This document shows positions 4,696 to 41,070 of a DNA stretch of 64,000 bases, piece after piece. This DNA comes from Planctomycetaceae bacterium (GTDB taxonomy: Bacteria > Planctomycetota > Planctomycetia > Planctomycetales > Planctomycetaceae). Positions within the stretch are counted from its first letter, which is position 1. Each line of letters starts with the position of its first letter. Location of the stretch: contig JADZEF010000419.1 in assembly GCA_020850695.1 (NCBI GenBank), positions 1-64,000 of the forward strand, read 5' to 3'. The translations under genes and the position numbers were made by a program. Below the pieces are notes generated by a model. That model was not told the DNA's origin, did not search any database, and saw only the letters and a program-made list of their open reading frames with translations.

Positions 4696-6123
4696 ATGAA
4701 CACGCACCGTTGTTCTGGTCCGGTTTCGCGCCGCAGATTCCTCGAGGTCGGCTCGCTCGCCGCCAGCGGCGTCTCGCTGTCCAGCATGCTTCGGCACCGC
4801 GCCCAGGCGGCCGAATCGCACGGCTCGTCGTTCGCTCCGGACGCCGACACCTCGGTCATCTTCATCTGGCTTCCCGGGGGCGCCCCGCACACCGAAACCT
4901 ACGACATGAAGCCGGACGCCCCGATCGAATACCGGGGCGAGTTCAACCCGATTCATACAAACGTCCCCGGCCTCGACGTCTGCGAGCACCTGCCGCTGCA
5001 CGCGAAGATGGCCGACAAGTACAACATCGTGCGGTCCGTGGCCCACAATTTCGCCGACCACGGCGGCGGCCACAAGCGGTTCCTCACCGGCCGCATCCCC
5101 GCCTCGCCGGTCGACACGGTCAACGACAACCCAATGGTCGGGTCGATCGTCGCCAAGTGCCGCGAGAAGAAGAGCGTCGGCATCCCGAACTACATCTCGG
5201 GGACCGATCCGGGACGCGACGGCATCGACGTCTTCGCCTTTGGCCCGGCCTACCTTGGCCCGACGTATGTTCCGTTCTCGGTCGCCGGAGATCCGAGCAG
5301 CGACAAGTTCGAAGTGCGGAACCTCGGCATCGATAAGGCGATGTCCGACCGTCTCGACGACCGCACCCGCCTGCTGACCGGCCTCGACCACCTGCAGCGG
5401 CAGGTCGACCGGAGCGGGGCGATGGATGCGATGGACTCGTTCAACCGCCGCGCCTTCGAGATCCTCACCAGCACCAAGTGCCGCGAAGCCTTCGACCTCA
5501 AGAAGGAGCCGCAGGAGCTTCGCGACCGCTACGGGATGCACGCCTGGGGCCAGCGGTGCCTGCTGGCCCGCCGCCTCGTCGAGGCGGGCTGCAGCTTCGT
5601 GACGATGGTGCTGGAAAACCCGTACCAGTCGGGCGTCCCCTTCCTGAAGCAGGGGGTCTACAACTGGGACTCGCACTCGGTCAACTGCCACATGTACGAC
5701 GATCTGAGGGCTCGCCTTCCGATCTATGACAAGTGCATCACGGCCCTCATCGAAGACCTCTACAACCGGGGCCTCGACAAGAAGGTCATGCTGGTCGTCA
5801 CGGGCGAGTTCGGCCGCACGCCGCGGGTCAACCCGGCGATCGGCACGCAGACCGGCGTGATGCAGCCCGGCCGCGACCACTGGCCGCAGGCCATGTCCTT
5901 CCTGGTGAGCGGCGGCGGAATGCAGACGGGGCAGGTGATTGGCTCGACGAATGCAAAGGCCGAGCACCCGCAGGACCGCCCGATGACGCCGAACAACTTG
6001 TGGGCTTCGGTCTACCGCCACCTGGGAATCGACTACACGATGGCCTTCCCGGACCGCCGCGGCCGCCCGATGCCGATCCTGCCGTTCGGCGAACCGATCG
6101 ACGAGTTGCTGCGGGTGTCGTGA
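4696..6123 (+). CDS. DUF1501 family exported protein (Tat substrate)
   Basis: A 475-residue DUF1501 protein. The ATG at 4696 starts just before a twin-arginine signal (SRRRFLEVGSLAASG), and the frame upstream of it does not look coding. Characteristic motifs are IFIWLPGGAPHTETYDMKP, ending in the DMKPDAPIEYRGEF box, an internal LARRLVEAGCSFV helix, GEFGRTPRVN, and GRDHWPQAMSFLVSGGG. It belongs to the same sub-branch as the DUF1501 genes at 24154 and 50966, which share the GEFGRTPR and GRDHW boxes. It has no adjacent DUF1549/DUF1553 gene. The biochemical role of the family is not established; association with exported degradation machinery is the usual inference. Confidence 0.9.
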   Translation: MNTHRCSGPVSRRRFLEVGSLAASGVSLSSMLRHRAQAAESHGSSFAPDADTSVIFIWLPGGAPHTETYDMKPDAPIEYRGEFNPIHTNVPGLDVCEHLPLHAKMADKYNIVRSVAHNFADHGGGHKRFLTGRIPASPVDTVNDNPMVGSIVAKCREKKSVGIPNYISGTDPGRDGIDVFAFGPAYLGPTYVPFSVAGDPSSDKFEVRNLGIDKAMSDRLDDRTRLLTGLDHLQRQVDRSGAMDAMDSFNRRAFEILTSTKCREAFDLKKEPQELRDRYGMHAWGQRCLLARRLVEAGCSFVTMVLENPYQSGVPFLKQGVYNWDSHSVNCHMYDDLRARLPIYDKCITALIEDLYNRGLDKKVMLVVTGEFGRTPRVNPAIGTQTGVMQPGRDHWPQAMSFLVSGGGMQTGQVIGSTNAKAEHPQDRPMTPNNLWASVYRHLGIDYTMAFPDRRGRPMPILPFGEPIDELLRVS

Positions 6124-18473: not shown

Positions 18474-18924
18474 GGGACGTCCTTGGGAAAAGGCGGCGAT
18501 TCAAGATCGCCGCAATGGGAGAGGTTCCTGGCACGACGGGTGGTTGGCGATTCAATCAACCTCCGACCGATCGCGTGAACCGACAAGCTACCGGACGCAC
18601 GCCCCGCGCCGCAATGAATCACCACAGATCACGGCAGGTCGCCCGAGTGTTGGCGAGGAACTCGATGCATCCCACCAGTAGGAGAGAAAAGGAAGGAACC
18701 ACGGAATACACGAAATACACGGAAAAGTGGCAGGCGAAATCCGACGCTGAGTTTTGGTTCCGGCCTGATGCGCCTTTTGCCTTCCTTCCGTGTATTTCGT
18801 GTATTCCGTGGTTCCTTCCCTCCTTTTGATTTTGACTCAGTGAACTGTGTTTGACGCCGGAAGTCGATGCGGGTACGAACACAAACCTGAGTTGATGCGT
18901 CCCGCGTTACTCCCTGCGAAACAA
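18474..18924. other. Intergenic region with an inverted repeat
   Basis: This gap separates the divergent pepF and double hydrolase genes. It holds the long-loop inverted repeat at 18688-18819. No additional gene is supported; the small open frames here are by-products of the repeat. Confidence 0.6.
18688..18819. repeat. Long-loop intergenic inverted repeat
   Basis: The left arm (18688-18724, containing GGAACCACGGAATACACG) is matched almost perfectly by the reverse complement of 18785-18819. The spacer is about 60 bp. The arms contain the motif CCACGGA, also seen in the repeats at 33580 and 39888. Confidence 0.85.
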
Positions 18925-33579: not shown

Positions 33580-33686
33580 GAGGGGCCACGGAAACGACGG
33601 AGTCGACGGAATTCCACGGACGAGCCGCCGTCGTTTTCGTCCTCATCCGTTCAATCCGTCCCATCCGTCGTTTCCGTGGCCCCTGG
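33580..33686. repeat. Long-loop intergenic inverted repeat
   Basis: GGGGCCACGGAAACGACGGA at 33582-33601 is matched by the reverse complement of 33664-33683. A spacer of ~60 bp intervenes. It lies between the PVC dehydrogenase and the GT2 gene. Confidence 0.8.
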
Positions 33687-34760: not shown

Positions 34761-35651
34761 TCAAGCGTGCGGCGGCGCGACCGCCGGCTTCGTCAGCACC
34801 GCCCAAAGGAACCCCGCAAGGTACTCGCGCAGGAACGGAACCTTGAGCAGTGCGCCGGACCAGCGGGCGAGCTTCGAACCGAACGGAACCAGGTGCATCT
34901 CGTGCGTCATCCCGCACGCGGCGAACTCCCGCTCGAAGTCGCGAATGAGGAACTTATTGAGGTAGTCGGTCGAAATCGCCTCGTGCTGATAGCGGTCGGT
35001 CCGTCGCTGCCCCTTGGCATCGAGGTCAAAAAGGGTCGGGCGATACCACGACGCCTGGTAGACGCGGCGACAGGTGCGAAGCATCGTCCGCTCGCCGAAC
35101 ACGATATGAGCCCAGGGGACCGGCATCGTCGCCCAGAGGTGCGGGGCGAATGGGTGCTTCCAACCCCACGTTCCGATGAGCATGCGGCCCCCCGGCCGGA
35201 GGACGCGGCGACACTCCGCGAGGATTCGGGCCGGCTGCGACACATGTTCGAAGACATCAAAGCACAGGATCGAATCGACGCTTGCATCCTCGAGCGGCAG
35301 TCGATCGACGCCGCTCAATCGGAAGTCGACGCCGGAATCGGTGAACGTCCGCTTCGCCCGCTCGATCGCCGCCGCATCGATATCGACGCCGATCAATGAC
35401 CGCGGGCCAAGTGCCTGATACTGCGACGTCAGAACGCCGTCGTTGCAGCCGAGATCGAGGACGTCGCGTCCCTTGACCTCGATGCCATAGCGAGCGATCG
35501 CGTCCAGTACGCGCCGCGCCTCGCCCGATCGAAAGCTTCGGAACGCGTCGGTGCTGGTCGTGGCCGCCTTCATCGTTCCCGAGTGGGCGACCTCGGTGCG
35601 GTAGAAGGTGCGGGCGAGGCCGTACAGCACCTGCTCGGCAATCCACCCCAT
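34761..35651 (-). CDS. Class I SAM-dependent methyltransferase
   Basis: A 296-residue Rossmann methyltransferase. Motif I is DVLDLGCNDG, the acidic end of strand 2 is GVDID, motif II region is ILCFDVFEHV, and RRVLRPGGRMLIG is the post-motif helix-strand. The N-terminus (MGWIAEQVLYGLARTFYRTEV) has an amphipathic helix, and the C-terminal part contains aromatic-rich segments typical of enzymes acting on lipids or glycans. An ATG 30 bp further upstream (35681) is also possible. It converges with the GT2 gene, which may hint at a role in modifying a lipid-linked sugar; this is only context. Confidence 0.85.
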   Translation of the reverse strand: MGWIAEQVLYGLARTFYRTEVAHSGTMKAATTSTDAFRSFRSGEARRVLDAIARYGIEVKGRDVLDLGCNDGVLTSQYQALGPRSLIGVDIDAAAIERAKRTFTDSGVDFRLSGVDRLPLEDASVDSILCFDVFEHVSQPARILAECRRVLRPGGRMLIGTWGWKHPFAPHLWATMPVPWAHIVFGERTMLRTCRRVYQASWYRPTLFDLDAKGQRRTDRYQHEAISTDYLNKFLIRDFEREFAACGMTHEMHLVPFGSKLARWSGALLKVPFLREYLAGFLWAVLTKPAVAPPHA

Positions 35652-36173
35652 CAGCAAGACCTCCGCAGTCAGGAGACTCAATCGCCGCGAATGAATGACA
35701 TCGTCACGCGATCGTTCGTGCGTTCCGGCTCGATCATCGCATCCAAAGGCGAAAAGGGAGGGTCTGTCGACGGCGGATTTGCAGTCCCCTGCCGGGGCGA
35801 AGGCGACCCTGCCAGGTGCGCCGGAAGAGACGGGATGTTGACGATCGGCAACACTGCTTTCACTGCCAGATCCGCGGGATTCACACCGGCCTGTGATGCT
35901 GCCGCACAGCGGGCTGTCGGGGGTCGAGCACGCCGGGAAATTCCCACGAAATCGGGTGCTCCGCGGGATTGGATGCCCTCTCGGCTATCATTGCTTCGGC
36001 GAGCGATGGGGATCGCGGGGGGCTCCGTCATTCGCAGTTTGCATTCGACTCCAATCGGTATTACGCTGCGCTGGGGACGAAGAGGAGCGGTGTGTTGCAG
36101 CTCTGCGTCGCTTCGAGCCCTGGAAGTTTTCAACCTGGGCGGCCGTCCGTCGATCCGGTCAGCGGGGCGGGAC
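35652..36173. other. Intergenic region upstream of the hybrid kinase
   Basis: The plus-strand frame of the kinase is open through this gap, but the translation lacks domain character and is rich in Arg, Ala and Gly. I treat it as non-coding. I see no clear promoter boxes or hairpins. Confidence 0.5.
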
Positions 36174-39100
36174 ATGCCTCAATCCGTCAGCCTCTCGCTG
36201 TTTGAACTGCTCGGCCCGCTGGTGGAATCCAACCCGCAGGCGGTGGTGGTTCTCGATGCGCGCGGGACAGTGGTGCTGGCGAACTCGGCCGCGTCGCGGG
36301 TCTTCGGGTATCGTGCCGACGAGTTTCCGGGACGTCCCTGCGAGTCCCTGATCGGCCCGCGGTTTCTGGAAGTCTTCGCGAGGTTGCGGGCGCATTCCAG
36401 CAGTCATCCCACGGCGAACGGTGCTGCCAGTGAAGGGAATGGCTCGGGCGCGCCGGCTTCCGATGCAGCCAATCTGATCGGCGGCATTCGCCAGAACGGT
36501 GAAGAGTTCCCCGTCGAAGTCGGCGTCAATCCCTTGCCGGCCGTCCTGGGGCAATATTCTGCGGCGACGTTCGTCGATATCTCCGAGCGGTTGCGGGTCG
36601 AGCAGGCGCTGCGCGATACCGAGGCCAGCTACCAGTCGCTCGTCGAGAGTCTCCCGCTCAACGTCTTCTGCAAGGATCTGCAGGGGCGGTTCAACTTCGT
36701 CAATCAGCGGTTCTGCGACACCGTGAAGATGGACCGCCGGCAGATGCTCGGCCGGACCGACTTCGACCTCTTCCCGCGCGCGCTGGCCGAAAAGTACGTC
36801 CGGGACGATCGACGGGTGATCGACAGCGGGCAGCCGTTTGACGACGTGGAAGAGCATCGCGAGGCCGACGGGACCGTCACCTACGTACAGGTATTGAAGG
36901 CCCCGGTTCGCGACGCCCGCGGAAACATCGTCGGCACGCAGGGGATGTTCTGGGACGTTACCGAGAAGAAGCGGGCCGAGGACCATCGCCGTGAGAGCGA
37001 GCTGCGAAAACGGGCGATCTTCGAGGCCTCGCTCGACTGCATCATCACCGTCGACCAGGAGAACCGGATCTTCGAGTTCAACCGCGCCGCCGAACGGACC
37101 TTCGGCTACCGCCGCGACGAGGTGGTGAACCAGCCGGTCGACGTGTTGTTTCCCTCGACGTCGCAGGAGCGGTATCGCTCGAACCTCGACCGCTACAGCG
37201 CCCGGCAGGAAGAGGGCTCGCTCGTCGGCAAGCGGCGCGAAGTCCCCGCCCGCCGCAAGAACGGGACGCAGTTCCTGGCCGAGATGACGATGCAGCCGAT
37301 TCCCATGAAGGGGTCGATGGCCTTCACGATCTTCCTGCGCGACGTCACCGAGCGCCGCCGCACCGAGGACGCCCTCCGCCGCAGCGACGCCCGCTTCCGC
37401 AGCCTCGTGCAGTCGAACATCATCGGCATCATGATCTGCCGGCTCGACGGCCAGGTGACCGAAGCCAACGACTCGTTCCTCCAGACGGTCGGCTACACGC
37501 GGGAAGAACTCCTGTCGGGCAACATCCGCTGGGACGAAATGACGCCCGTGGAGTACCGCGGTTACGACGAAATTGCGAAGGTGCAGCTGCGCGAACATGG
37601 CCAGGCGGTGCCGTGGGAGAAGGAATTTTTCCGGAAGGACGGCGAGCGCGTCCCGGTGCTGATCGGCGTCGCGATGCTTGAAGGGAGCCGCAATCACTGC
37701 GTCTGCTTCGTGCTCGACATGACGACGCAGAAGCAGCAGGAGCGAGAACTCCAGGCGGCGAAGGAAGCGGCCGATGCGGCGAACCGCGCGAAGACGGCGT
37801 TCCTCGCCAGCATGAGCCACGAGATCCGCACGCCGATCCACGCGATCCTCACGGCGACCGACCTCGTGCTCGACATGCGGCCGACGCCCGACCAGCGCGA
37901 GTATCTCCACATCGTAAAGGACTCGGGCGAATCGCTGCTGTCGCTCATCAACGACGTGCTCGACTTCTCGAAGATCGAAGCGGGCCGGCTCGATGCCGAC
38001 GAGATCGAGTTCCGGCTCCGCGACGCCATCGGCGGCACGCTCAAGACGGTCGCCGTGCAGGCGCACGCCAGGAACCTCGAACTGGTCGCCGATGTCAAAC
38101 CCGACGTCCCGGACCGGGTGATCGGCGACGTGACCCACTTCCGGCAGGTCGTCGTCAATCTCGTCGCCAACGCGATCAAGTTCACCGAGGCCGGCGAGGT
38201 GGTTGTGCAGACCTCCCTTGTCAGCCGCGACGAGGACGAAGTCGAGCTTCAGGTCTCGGTCCGCGACACCGGCATCGGCGTCCCCGAGAGCGAACGCGAG
38301 CGGATCTTCGAGCCGTTTGAACAGGTCGACAACACGATGCGCCGCAAGGTGAGCGGCACGGGACTCGGCCTGGCCATCTGCAAGCGGCTGGTCGAGAGCA
38401 TGCGGGGCCGCATCTGGTGCGAAAGCACTGTCGGCCGCGGAACGACGTTCTTCTTTACCGTGAAGCTCCCGCTGACCGGCGAATCGGAATTCGAGGACGG
38501 CGCCGAGACGACGGCCGCGCTGCGGGCGATGCGCGTGCTGATTGTCGATGACAACGCCGCCTGCCGCGAAGCGATCGCCGACATGTTCCTCAGCTGGGGC
38601 ATGGCGCCGACGGTCGTCGTCGACGGGGCGGCCGCGCTCACCGAGTTGGAAAAGTCCCGCAGCGAGGGAACGCGTTTCGACCTGATGCTGGTCGACGCCC
38701 GCATGCCGGGAATCGACGGCTTCACGCTCGCGTCAGACGCCCAGCGCCGCTTCGGCCTTCCGGGCTCACGCATCCTGATGCTGCTGACGTCGGGCGACAG
38801 CTCTGGAGACATCTCGCGGTGCGAGCAGCTTGGAACACCGGCCTACCTCATGAAGCCGGTGAACCAGTCCGAGCTGTTCGACACGCTGATGGCCCTCATC
38901 CATGGGGAGAGCAGCAGCCGCGTGTTGTTCCGCGGGGCCGCAGAAGCCGTCCCTCAGACGGGGCGGTCCCTCGATGTCCTGCTGACCGAAGACAGCCCGT
39001 ACAACCAGAAGCTGGCGCTGGCCGTCCTGTCGCGGCGCGGGCACCGCGTGACGGTGGCGAACAACGGCCGCGAAGCCGTGGTCGCTCTTCGCAAGCGCCC

Positions 39101-39842
39101 GTTCGACATCGTGCTGATGGACGTGCAGATGCCCGAGATGGACGGCCTTGAGGCGACGCGGATGATCCGCGCTGCGGAGCGCGATTCGCCCCGCCGCACC
39201 CCGATCATCGCGATGACGGCGCAGGCCCTGAAGGGAGATCGCGAGAAGTGCCTCGAGGCGGGGATGGACGAGTACCTCACGAAGCCGGTCAGGGCGACCG
39301 ACCTGCATGCCGCCATCGAGCGGTTGACCAGTGATGCAGAACCGGTGAATGGCACTCTTGCCGCAGCAACGGCGACTCTGCGCGGCGATCCATCGGGATC
39401 GCGTGCTGAGGACGAAGCGAACGAACTCGCGCGAGAACCGTCCAACGGTTTTGACGCCTCAGAAATCCGGGGCGCGGAATCAACGGCCGTCCCTGCACCG
39501 GTGAAATGGGATGTCGCATTGGAGGGAGTCGGCGGCGACCGCAGCCTCCTCCGCGAAGTCGTCGAGGCGTTCTGTCAGGAAGCGCCGACACATCTGCGCG
39601 GTATCGCAGAGGGGGCCGCGCACAACGATGCAAAGCTCCTGTCGCGATCGGCCCACACGCTCAAGGGAGGCCTGCGGTTTCTCGGGGTCGAGTCGGTCGC
39701 ATCCGTGGCCGAATCGCTGGAAAAAGCAGCCAAGGCCGGACGCACGCAGGGACACGAGCGGCAGATCGAAACACTGGAGCGGGAGGCGACCGAGATTCTT
39801 GACTTTGTCCGTCAGTGGCTGCGAGAGACGGACCCCGCGTGA
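36174..39842 (+). CDS. Hybrid sensor histidine kinase: 4 PAS, HisKA, HATPase, 2 receivers, Hpt
   Basis: A 1222-residue cytosolic phosphorelay protein without membrane segments. Order: PAS 1 (~18-140), PAS 2 (~148-265), PAS 3 (~275-395), PAS 4 (~405-525), a short coiled coil, HisKA with His549 in MSHEIRTP, HATPase (N-box NLVANAIKFT, G1 DTGIGVP, G2 GTGLGLAI), receiver 1 with Asp841 (LVDARMPG), receiver 2 with Asp983 (LMDVQMPEMDG), and Hpt with His1161 (AHTLKGG). All phosphorylation residues are present, so an internal His-Asp-His-Asp relay of the BarA/ArcB type is expected. The start is the ATG before SLFELLGPLVE. The next gene codes for a receiver protein, its obvious candidate partner. The stimulus is unknown. 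Confidence 0.93.
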   Translation: MPQSVSLSLFELLGPLVESNPQAVVVLDARGTVVLANSAASRVFGYRADEFPGRPCESLIGPRFLEVFARLRAHSSSHPTANGAASEGNGSGAPASDAANLIGGIRQNGEEFPVEVGVNPLPAVLGQYSAATFVDISERLRVEQALRDTEASYQSLVESLPLNVFCKDLQGRFNFVNQRFCDTVKMDRRQMLGRTDFDLFPRALAEKYVRDDRRVIDSGQPFDDVEEHREADGTVTYVQVLKAPVRDARGNIVGTQGMFWDVTEKKRAEDHRRESELRKRAIFEASLDCIITVDQENRIFEFNRAAERTFGYRRDEVVNQPVDVLFPSTSQERYRSNLDRYSARQEEGSLVGKRREVPARRKNGTQFLAEMTMQPIPMKGSMAFTIFLRDVTERRRTEDALRRSDARFRSLVQSNIIGIMICRLDGQVTEANDSFLQTVGYTREELLSGNIRWDEMTPVEYRGYDEIAKVQLREHGQAVPWEKEFFRKDGERVPVLIGVAMLEGSRNHCVCFVLDMTTQKQQERELQAAKEAADAANRAKTAFLASMSHEIRTPIHAILTATDLVLDMRPTPDQREYLHIVKDSGESLLSLINDVLDFSKIEAGRLDADEIEFRLRDAIGGTLKTVAVQAHARNLELVADVKPDVPDRVIGDVTHFRQVVVNLVANAIKFTEAGEVVVQTSLVSRDEDEVELQVSVRDTGIGVPESERERIFEPFEQVDNTMRRKVSGTGLGLAICKRLVESMRGRIWCESTVGRGTTFFFTVKLPLTGESEFEDGAETTAALRAMRVLIVDDNAACREAIADMFLSWGMAPTVVVDGAAALTELEKSRSEGTRFDLMLVDARMPGIDGFTLASDAQRRFGLPGSRILMLLTSGDSSGDISRCEQLGTPAYLMKPVNQSELFDTLMALIHGESSSRVLFRGAAEAVPQTGRSLDVLLTEDSPYNQKLALAVLSRRGHRVTVANNGREAVVALRKRPFDIVLMDVQMPEMDGLEATRMIRAAERDSPRRTPIIAMTAQALKGDREKCLEAGMDEYLTKPVRATDLHAAIERLTSDAEPVNGTLAAATATLRGDPSGSRAEDEANELAREPSNGFDASEIRGAESTAVPAPVKWDVALEGVGGDRSLLREVVEAFCQEAPTHLRGIAEGAAHNDAKLLSRSAHTLKGGLRFLGVESVASVAESLEKAAKAGRTQGHERQIETLEREATEILDFVRQWLRETDPA

Positions 39843-40161
39843 CGTCGCGGCGTTCAACAGGTTGCCGTAATGAGACCACGTACTTCTCACCACGGAGACA
39901 CGGAGACACGGAGACACGGAGACACGGAGACACGGAGACACGGAGACACGGAGACACGGAGACACGGAGACACGGAGAAATGCGGGGAAGGATCCGCAAG
40001 AAGCCGCGAATGCGAACTCTGTGGCGGGTTCAACAAGCACTTGGCCGCACACCTTTCATTTTCTTGATTTTTCTCCGTGACTCCGTGTCTCCCTGGTGGA
40101 AAATGCCTTTCATGTCCAAGTCCAGGCGTCACTCGACCAAGACCCTTTTCCGGATCCCGCG
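39843..40161. other. Intergenic region with an octamer array
   Basis: This gap holds the tandem octamer array (39891-39978) and its inverted partner arm (40068-40099). Open frames across the array are artefacts of the repeat. Confidence 0.7.
39891..39978. repeat. Tandem array of an octamer, 11 copies
   Basis: The octamer CACGGAGA is repeated eleven times without interruption from 39891 to 39978. The bases just before it and its first copies match the reverse complement of 40068-40099 (CTCCGTGACTCCGTGTCTCC), so the array is an expanded arm of an inverted repeat. Total extent of the inverted repeat is 39888-40099. Confidence 0.95.
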
Positions 40162-41070
40162 ATGACCACCCTGCTCGTCGTGGATGACTCGTTGATGGAC
40201 CAGAGACGTGCCGGCGGGCTGCTGCAGAAGCATCCCGAGTGGTCGGTCTATTATGCGTGCAACGGCAAGGAAGCGTTGCAGAAGATCGAGCTGCATCTGC
40301 CGGACCTCGTTCTGACCGACATGCAGATGCCCGAGATGGGAGGGCTCGAACTGGTCGAGATGGTCCGCAAGCGTTATCCGTTGCTCCCCATCGTGCTGAT
40401 GACGGCGCAGGGAAGCGAGGACATCGCGGTGTCGGCGCTCCAGGCCGGGGCGGCCAACTATGTTCCGAAGCGCGAGATGGCCCACGAACTGGTCGAGGTG
40501 GTCGAGCGGGTGCTGTCGGCGTCCTGTCGCGAACGGCATGTCGCGCGGCTGCTGACGCGGCTGGTGCGCCAGGAGCTGGCGTTCGAACTGGAGAACGACC
40601 TGCAGCTGATTCCGCCGCTGGTGCATCACCTGCAACAGGCAGGGGTCGTCCATCGGCTTTACACGGAATCCGAGTCAGTCCGCGTGGGCGTTGCGCTCGA
40701 AGAGGCGATGCTCAACGCCTACTACCATGGCAACCTGGAAGTGAGTTCGACCCTCCGCGAGCAGGACCATAATTCCTATTACGACCTGGCCCGCGAGCGT
40801 TCGCTGGCGGCGCCTTATCGTGAGCGCAGGATCGTGGTCGAGGCGACCTTCACGCCGACCGCCGGCGTGTACGTCATCCGCGATGAAGGGCCGGGCTTCG
40901 ATCCCTCCACGCTGCCCAGCGCGGTCGATGCGGCGAACATCGAAAGGCCGTGCGGGCGGGGCCTGCTTTTGATGCGGACGTTCATGGATGAGGTGCGTTT
41001 CAACGTGATCGGGAACGAGGTGACGATGGTGAAGCGTCGTGGATCGCGTAACGAAGCGCCGGAACAGTAG
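40162..41070 (+). CDS. Receiver domain fused to RsbW-like HATPase
   Basis: A 302-residue response regulator. The receiver (1-120) has acidic pair VVDDS, phospho-acceptor Asp53 (LTDMQMPEMGG), the switch Thr in LMTAQGS and the Lys in VPKRE. The output half (~165-295) is an ATPase of the anti-sigma/RsbW type: N-box EEAMLNAYYHGN, G1 RDEGPGFDP, G2 CGRGLLLMRTF. Such proteins usually act by binding or phosphorylating an anti-anti-sigma factor, so phosphorylation of Asp53 could gate a partner switch. It lies 319 bp after the hybrid kinase and is its most likely target. No STAS-domain or sigma gene is in the window. Confidence 0.88.
   Translation: MTTLLVVDDSLMDQRRAGGLLQKHPEWSVYYACNGKEALQKIELHLPDLVLTDMQMPEMGGLELVEMVRKRYPLLPIVLMTAQGSEDIAVSALQAGAANYVPKREMAHELVEVVERVLSASCRERHVARLLTRLVRQELAFELENDLQLIPPLVHHLQQAGVVHRLYTESESVRVGVALEEAMLNAYYHGNLEVSSTLREQDHNSYYDLARERSLAAPYRERRIVVEATFTPTAGVYVIRDEGPGFDPSTLPSAVDAANIERPCGRGLLLMRTFMDEVRFNVIGNEVTMVKRRGSRNEAPEQ

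Follow-up and report, generated by a model that had tools for sequence, protein, structure and literature searches.

The window analysed here, a stretch of 64,000 nucleotides from a Planctomycetaceae bacterium (contig JADZEF010000419.1 of assembly GCA_020850695.1), carries an inverted repeat of which one arm has grown into eleven octamers. The locus raises the question of what kind of element this is and how one arm came to be so much longer than the other. An earlier interpretation, made from the letters alone (the sequence-only reading), had ascribed the array to one-sided slippage and had supposed that its length may vary between cells, altering spacing or transcript structure. We conclude that 39888–40098 is probably a gene-less, MITE-like relative of hairpin elements built around a GxxExxY gene, with its left arm expanded by slippage. 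Relatives enclosing a GxxExxY gene occur in many bacteria and may represent a form of selfish DNA that is so far little known. The locus has the following features:

35583–39842, plus strand: upstream gene, hybrid histidine kinase (PAS/HisKA/HATPase/REC/REC/Hpt); true start uncertain
39888–39978, plus strand: left arm, a CAC leader and eleven perfect CACGGAGA octamers
39979–40071, no strand assigned: core between the arms, without a called gene
40072–40098, minus strand: right arm, three units (the normal number for the CACGGAG family) with one substitution
40104–40110, minus strand: AAAGGCA motif (TGCCTTT on the plus strand) immediately beyond the right arm, a motif enriched beside arms of the CACGGAG family
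40162–41070, plus strand: downstream gene, protein with a receiver domain and HATPase_c_2

Octamer array and inverted repeat

Tandem repeat analysis with TRF returned eleven octamers (CACGGAGA × 11.0, all perfect) at 39891–39978, and every spacer in the 11-fold array was A. The array was located between kinase and regulator, as had been claimed, with the hybrid kinase gene stopping at 39842 and that of the REC + HATPase_c_2 protein, which has the same orientation, beginning at 40162, and the proposed inverted partner was recovered at 40072–40098 (27 nt, 93% complementary). The right arm, previously credited with about two imperfect units, actually has three, CACCAGGGAG-A-CACGGAG-T-CACGGAG on the minus strand, one substitution included; with this usual number it is an ordinary arm, and the expansion is confined to the left one.

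Matches to the 15-mer in the window (at most 3 mismatches) numbered 14 against a chance mean of 4.2, a count reached in 0 of 100 shuffles, and the folded window strand was 4.75 sd more stable than shuffles. Successive octamers pair with the single right arm at 40072–40098 in several registers. Since any three consecutive units of the left arm can pair in this way, the hairpin survives expansion and the loop alone lengthens.

The gap holding the array was screened for a terminator or promoter and gave neither, and no GC hairpin followed by a T run, as in an intrinsic terminator, was seen at the window copy. Its core held no ORF, the window gave no rRNA match, and Rfam returned no known RNA family at the gathering cut-off for the window and seven loci. 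Relatives of the regulator gene were fetched (80), and among the 32 examined none had a heptamer array within 400 bp upstream, which places the window array outside any conserved kinase–regulator arrangement.

Dispersed copies in the same genome

Across the 8.6-Mb genome there were 81 exact matches to the 15-mer CACGGAGACACGGAG, 39 of them forward and 42 reverse, compared with 0 for the reversed sequence as control; an 18-mer from the arm end, allowing up to 3 mismatches, gave 126 matches vs. 10 for controls. From 43 stretches fetched around CACGGAG-arm matches, at least 37 paired copies including that of the window were obtained, with the arms oriented face to face (CACCACGGAG...CTCCGTGGTG). 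Units per arm were 3+3 in 23 of the 37 paired copies, two to four in the rest and 11+3 in the window, and exact runs of three (41), two (23), four (3) and eleven units (1, the window) were counted. With 3+3 as the usual state and 11+3 as the sole outlier, the array is best read as the slippage-expanded left arm of one dispersed hairpin copy, so that the earlier claim of one-sided slippage is well supported. The second spacer tended to match between both arms (17 of 23 A/T cases, Fisher p 0.027; three G cases omitted).

The paired copies, 37 in number, have the terminal inverted repeats, short length, dispersal and non-coding character of MITEs. Their cores measured 43–440 bp, differed between copies and frequently contained other inverted repeats of the same style, of the GAGCAGAG type in 10 copies and of further types in 2, 1 and 3. 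AAGGCA was found within 22 bp of CACGGAG arms on the outside in 15 of 74 cases and on the inside in 29 of 74, compared with 58 of 11006 background windows. One copy (L002, 2001–2410) carries the REP-like palindromes CGCCGAAGGCG and AGCCCAGGGT in its core as nested elements. Another genome, G030, has 126 matches to the 15-mer and contains compact hairpins of the same octamers with arms facing in and facing out (L208–L223).

GxxExxY genes within periodic-arm inverted repeats

The search set comprised 59 genomes, namely the window's own and relatives, its own being the only one of its genus. TIGR04256 gave 114 matches in 35 of the 59, five of them genes of the own genome. A subset of 73 matches, picked mainly by score, was examined, and four were dropped for short flanks, leaving 69 testable loci. 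An inverted repeat between the 400-bp flanks (score ≥14) was present at 58 of these, the other 11 scoring below the threshold; mismatched pairs, joining one locus's left flank to the right flank of another, reached that score in 58 of 1035 cases, and displaced flanks of the same loci in 1 of 65. The elements had a median length of 510 bp (n = 58).

Arms were periodic (p ≤ 0.05) at 43 of the 58 loci, with periods of 8 (17), 9 (16), 10 (8) and 11 bp (2). The heptamer CRCVRAK, iterated every 8–10 bp, occurred in 49 of the 58 arms vs. about 10% of shuffles and 0 of 23 arms around S23 genes, and arms matched within a locus, not across loci. Arm similarity tracked protein similarity (Mantel r 0.34, p 0.0005, kinship uncorrected; n = 59 of 65 arms, the six of ≥60 nt being omitted). 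At five loci (L072, L171, L186, L192, L264) the GxxExxY gene apparently has a complete hairpin on each side instead of a single arm.

Membership in the GxxExxY family is illustrated by L078, with 138.2 bits for TIGR04256 (cut-off 35) and 135.2 bits for PF13366. Catalytic-type PD-(D/E)XK residues were retained in most of the 82 sequences (E in 81, D in 80, and the E and K of E-x-K in 76 and 78). Searches against solved structures gave only weak matches (E 0.036 or worse), PADLOC assigned no defence-system role to two GxxExxY proteins and one S23 protein, a single GxxExxY query had no match in the phage collection, and no GxxExxY gene was confirmed in viral contigs.

In the relative G012, a GxxExxY gene at 5712–6059 of C182 stands between CACGGAG 15-mer arms at 5626 (plus) and 6108 (minus). 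None of the five GxxExxY genes detected in the own genome proved to have CACGGAG arms, their arms being of other types or missing. Further loci from other organisms had arms scoring ≥16 in 8 of 11 cases, namely in Gemmatirosa, Bernardetia, Bacteroides finegoldii, Sphingomonas parapaucimobilis and four times in a Chloracidobacterium record (G067); of the remaining three, L259 is truncated by the end of its contig, L260 is a broken copy and L267, from Treponema, has a repeat of 11 nt. The same architecture recurs in Bacteroidota, Gemmatimonadota, Sphingomonas and a Chloracidobacterium record.

Across the 59 genomes, a generic three-unit pattern was matched 430 times in 25 genomes, its reversed control 0 times in every genome. 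GxxExxY genes were present in 23 of the 25 genomes with the pattern vs. 12 of the 34 without it (Fisher p 1e-5) and in all 19 genomes with at least two pattern matches (Spearman 0.70), both values being uncorrected for kinship. The flanks of the GxxExxY genes themselves account for at most 128 of the 430 matches. The own genome gave 0 matches because its arms start with CACC, not AACC. For the exact 15-mer no significant tie to GxxExxY was seen (10 of 12 vs. 25 of 47 genomes, p 0.098).

Gene-less copies and sites without the element

A GxxExxY locus of G067, used as a DNA query, identified 66 places in its own genome, which were merged to 38 loci; the gene was present in only two of these, and 36 were gene-less. 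Of the GxxExxY genes in the window's genome, the one on contig C334 has the arm CCACGGAAACGACGGA, for which 148 matches were counted there (≤1 mismatch; 0 for controls), and the arm of a further one (C97, L046) had six. The latter gene-bearing copy has AAAGGCA outside and inside the arm, as in the CACGGAG family. Gene-less copies share their ends with GxxExxY-bearing copies in G012 and G067, and those of a sister family do so in the own genome; MITEs share theirs with an autonomous element that encodes a transposase, and GxxExxY is not a known transposase.

Three other hairpins of the same class, in other dialects, were noted in the window:

18691–18819, no strand assigned: second hairpin, perfect ACCACGGAATACACGAAATACACGGAA-type arms of 34 nt
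33581–33684, no strand assigned: third hairpin, without a gene, its arm a copy of CCACGGAAACGACGGA as found beside the own GxxExxY gene on C334
43532–43630, no strand assigned: fourth inverted repeat, CGCAGAG-type heptamers with arms oriented the opposite way

Two operons were compared between species. In Bacteroides finegoldii, a GxxExxY element follows the stop codon of radA immediately and precedes the gene of an FAD-dependent protein; in Parabacteroides distasonis 13 bp separate radA from the FAD gene, and arms and GxxExxY gene are both missing. In Sphingomonas parapaucimobilis, a GxxExxY element stands between fabD and fabG; the fabD–fabG gap of Sinorhizobium meliloti measures 24 bp and is without the element, which is also missing after fabD in Sphingomonas paeninsulae. 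The operons without the element look like empty sites. As the comparison sites belong to other species or genera, insertion is the likelier but not the sole reading; they are only about 70% identical to the occupied ones, and no target-site duplication was delimited. Since arms and gene are both absent at these sites, they appear to arrive together. A Phocaeicola sequence considered as a third occupant of the radA–FAD gap was rejected, the gap holding another gene without heptamer arms.

S23 genes in hairpins of another lexicon

PF05635, the family of the 23S rRNA intervening sequence protein (S23), had 124 matches in 39 of the 59 genomes. Flanking inverted repeats were present at 23 of 30 loci examined, compared with 20 of 450 mismatched pairs and 1 of 29 displaced flanks. 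Arms were periodic at 21 of the 23, 16 of them at 7 bp, and CRCVRAK occurred in none, so the lexicon is specific to the gene family.

At one locus (L232, G042) the S23 gene lies between long 7-bp arrays of 27 and 30 units (1070–1260 and 2091–2298), both arms being expanded in this case, vs. one in the window copy. At a Y1 locus (L049, G000 C370) the transposase gene has a 7-bp GGAGTCA array as well as palindromes of REP-like type at its flanks and looks as though it were nested in an S23-type hairpin.

Proposed mechanism and alternatives

The window copy probably belongs to a broad class of periodic-arm inverted repeats, about 0.5 kb long when gene-bearing, that enclose a GxxExxY gene, for a protein of the PD-(D/E)XK nuclease fold, and shed gene-less derivatives through the genome. 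We infer that GxxExxY proteins move the hairpins: the nuclease would cut DNA and thereby spread its own hairpin, gene-less copies would move in trans, and the CACGGAG family itself would have been spread by a GxxExxY protein. In the window copy, with arms of iterated CACGGAG heptamers plus a one-base spacer, replication slippage would have taken the left arm from about three to eleven units; slippage in an iterated arm may alter the unit number, a change that pairing in any register would tolerate. Once transcribed, the hairpin could act as a stem-loop of the RNase III type, in the way known from the intervening sequences of rRNA.

Taken over all loci, the data allow a broader reading, which is offered tentatively and at somewhat less than even chance: a widespread, apparently undescribed class of selfish hairpins whose arms would be private heptamer 'dialects', each tied to a small gene (GxxExxY nuclease, 8–10 bp; S23 four-helix-bundle protein, 7 bp), which sheds gene-less hairpins in several phyla. 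The intervening sequences of rRNA would be its only special case known so far, and GxxExxY would be the nuclease spreading its own dialect.

Ordinary regulatory or mRNA-stability stem-loops under selection, into which GxxExxY and S23 genes happened to land, are an unlikely alternative to such mobile hairpins. The strong fold of the window copy agrees with it, as does the orientation of neighbouring genes: with a crude gene caller and four copies left out as too close to an end, 17 of 23 classifiable copies lay between codirectional genes (two overlap a called ORF), 5 between divergent and 1 between convergent ones, so that many are probably transcribed as stem-loops. It is opposed by the radA–FAD (Bacteroidota) and fabD–fabG gaps, which lack arms and gene alike in the comparison species, by the systematic difference between the arms of GxxExxY and S23 genes, and by a window gap without terminator, promoter or Rfam match.

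Rather less probable is dispersal by Y1 (RAYT/TIRYT) transposases, as with REP and TIR elements, the GxxExxY genes being passengers. The own genome does have 12 Y1 matches, several with flanking inverted repeats, and REP-like palindromes occupy the core of one CACGGAG copy (L002). Yet of 8 Y1 loci tested from the 12, repeats were present at 6 and periodic at only 2 of these, one owing to a 7-bp array; CACGGAG arms were found at 0 of 10 Y1 loci scanned, no cognate IS200/IS605-like Y1 transposase was seen beside the same palindrome in the way of REP/RAYT, and the lexicon of GxxExxY arms goes with their gene family.

An assembly artefact in the eleven-unit count is very unlikely. The count was taken from a draft of 440 contigs, in which several copies of the family lie close to contig ends, but the array spans only 88 bp, within the reach of ordinary reads, is unique in length among the runs examined, and has a parallel in the long symmetrical arrays of the S23 element L232 (27 and 30 units). 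A plain microsatellite-like tract, varying between cells, tuning the regulator gene and unlinked to any mobile element, can practically be dismissed: perfect elevenfold repetition with A in every spacer would suit it, as would the heptamer number that differs among Coxiella strains in an analogous place (PMC4990558), but dozens of unrelated sites show this unit again, together with the arms and the flanking motif, so that slippage alone is no complete account, while still the best one of the unit number.

GxxExxY and S23 are common orphan protein families, and GxxExxY, its TIGR and its Pfam names are mentioned in only three papers of the literature searched. Both families sit in periodic-arm hairpins and each has a repeat vocabulary of its own, which makes a role in selfish hairpin elements plausible for them. 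An association of periodic-arm hairpins with GxxExxY was not found in the literature searched, in which subscription journals are thinly covered. The mechanism is open to a direct test, for which a small protein in purified form and a short piece of DNA would be enough.

Comparison with known systems

Tandem repeats before a small nuclease are also known from type III toxin-antitoxin loci; this reading was set aside because the repeats here are inverted and stand on both sides of the gene. Many-copy intergenic tandem heptamers are known as well from the cyanobacterial STRR sequences. The TAACTGA heptamers of Beggiatoaceae are likewise intergenic, tandem and present in many copies, and are described as sets of direct repeats that hardly ever occur inverted and mostly precede start codons (PMC4679880); the accessible part of that report names no GxxExxY-like partner gene, in which they differ from the hairpins here.

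The BrickBuilt MITE of Porphyromonas gingivalis, a 23-nt minisatellite between short inverted ends, is similar in being intergenic, dispersed and non-coding, with inverted-repeat ends and an internal tandem repeat (PMC4596501). In the hairpins here, by contrast with the available description of BrickBuilt, it is the inverted arms that consist of the tandem repeat, and they have no link to a transposase of any known family. REP/RAYT (REPtron) and TIR/TIRYT systems share palindromes dispersed by or beside a cognate gene, in gene-bearing and gene-less copies (PMC3733652); from what that source describes, they differ in their Y1 transposase, whose place as partner is taken here by a PD-(D/E)XK-type protein, and in that the arms here are iterated heptamers.

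The intervening sequence (IVS) in the 23S rRNA of Coxiella burnetii is a selfish stem-loop of about 430 nt with a small S23 ORF in its loop, preceded by GACAGAT heptamers, two or three according to strain, and excised by RNase III (PMC4990558). The window copy itself is no IVS, its core having no ORF and its site lying between two protein genes, not in 23S rRNA. As far as the accessible account of the IVS goes, the elements here also differ from it in standing between protein genes instead of in rRNA, from which the IVS is excised by RNase III, and in having GxxExxY as the main ORF and another lexicon. The gene-bearing relatives resemble it as stem-loops with an ORF in the loop and tandem heptamers beside it (PMC4990558), and the finding would account for a large class of bacterial heptamer-repeat hairpins and tie these to the rRNA intervening sequences.
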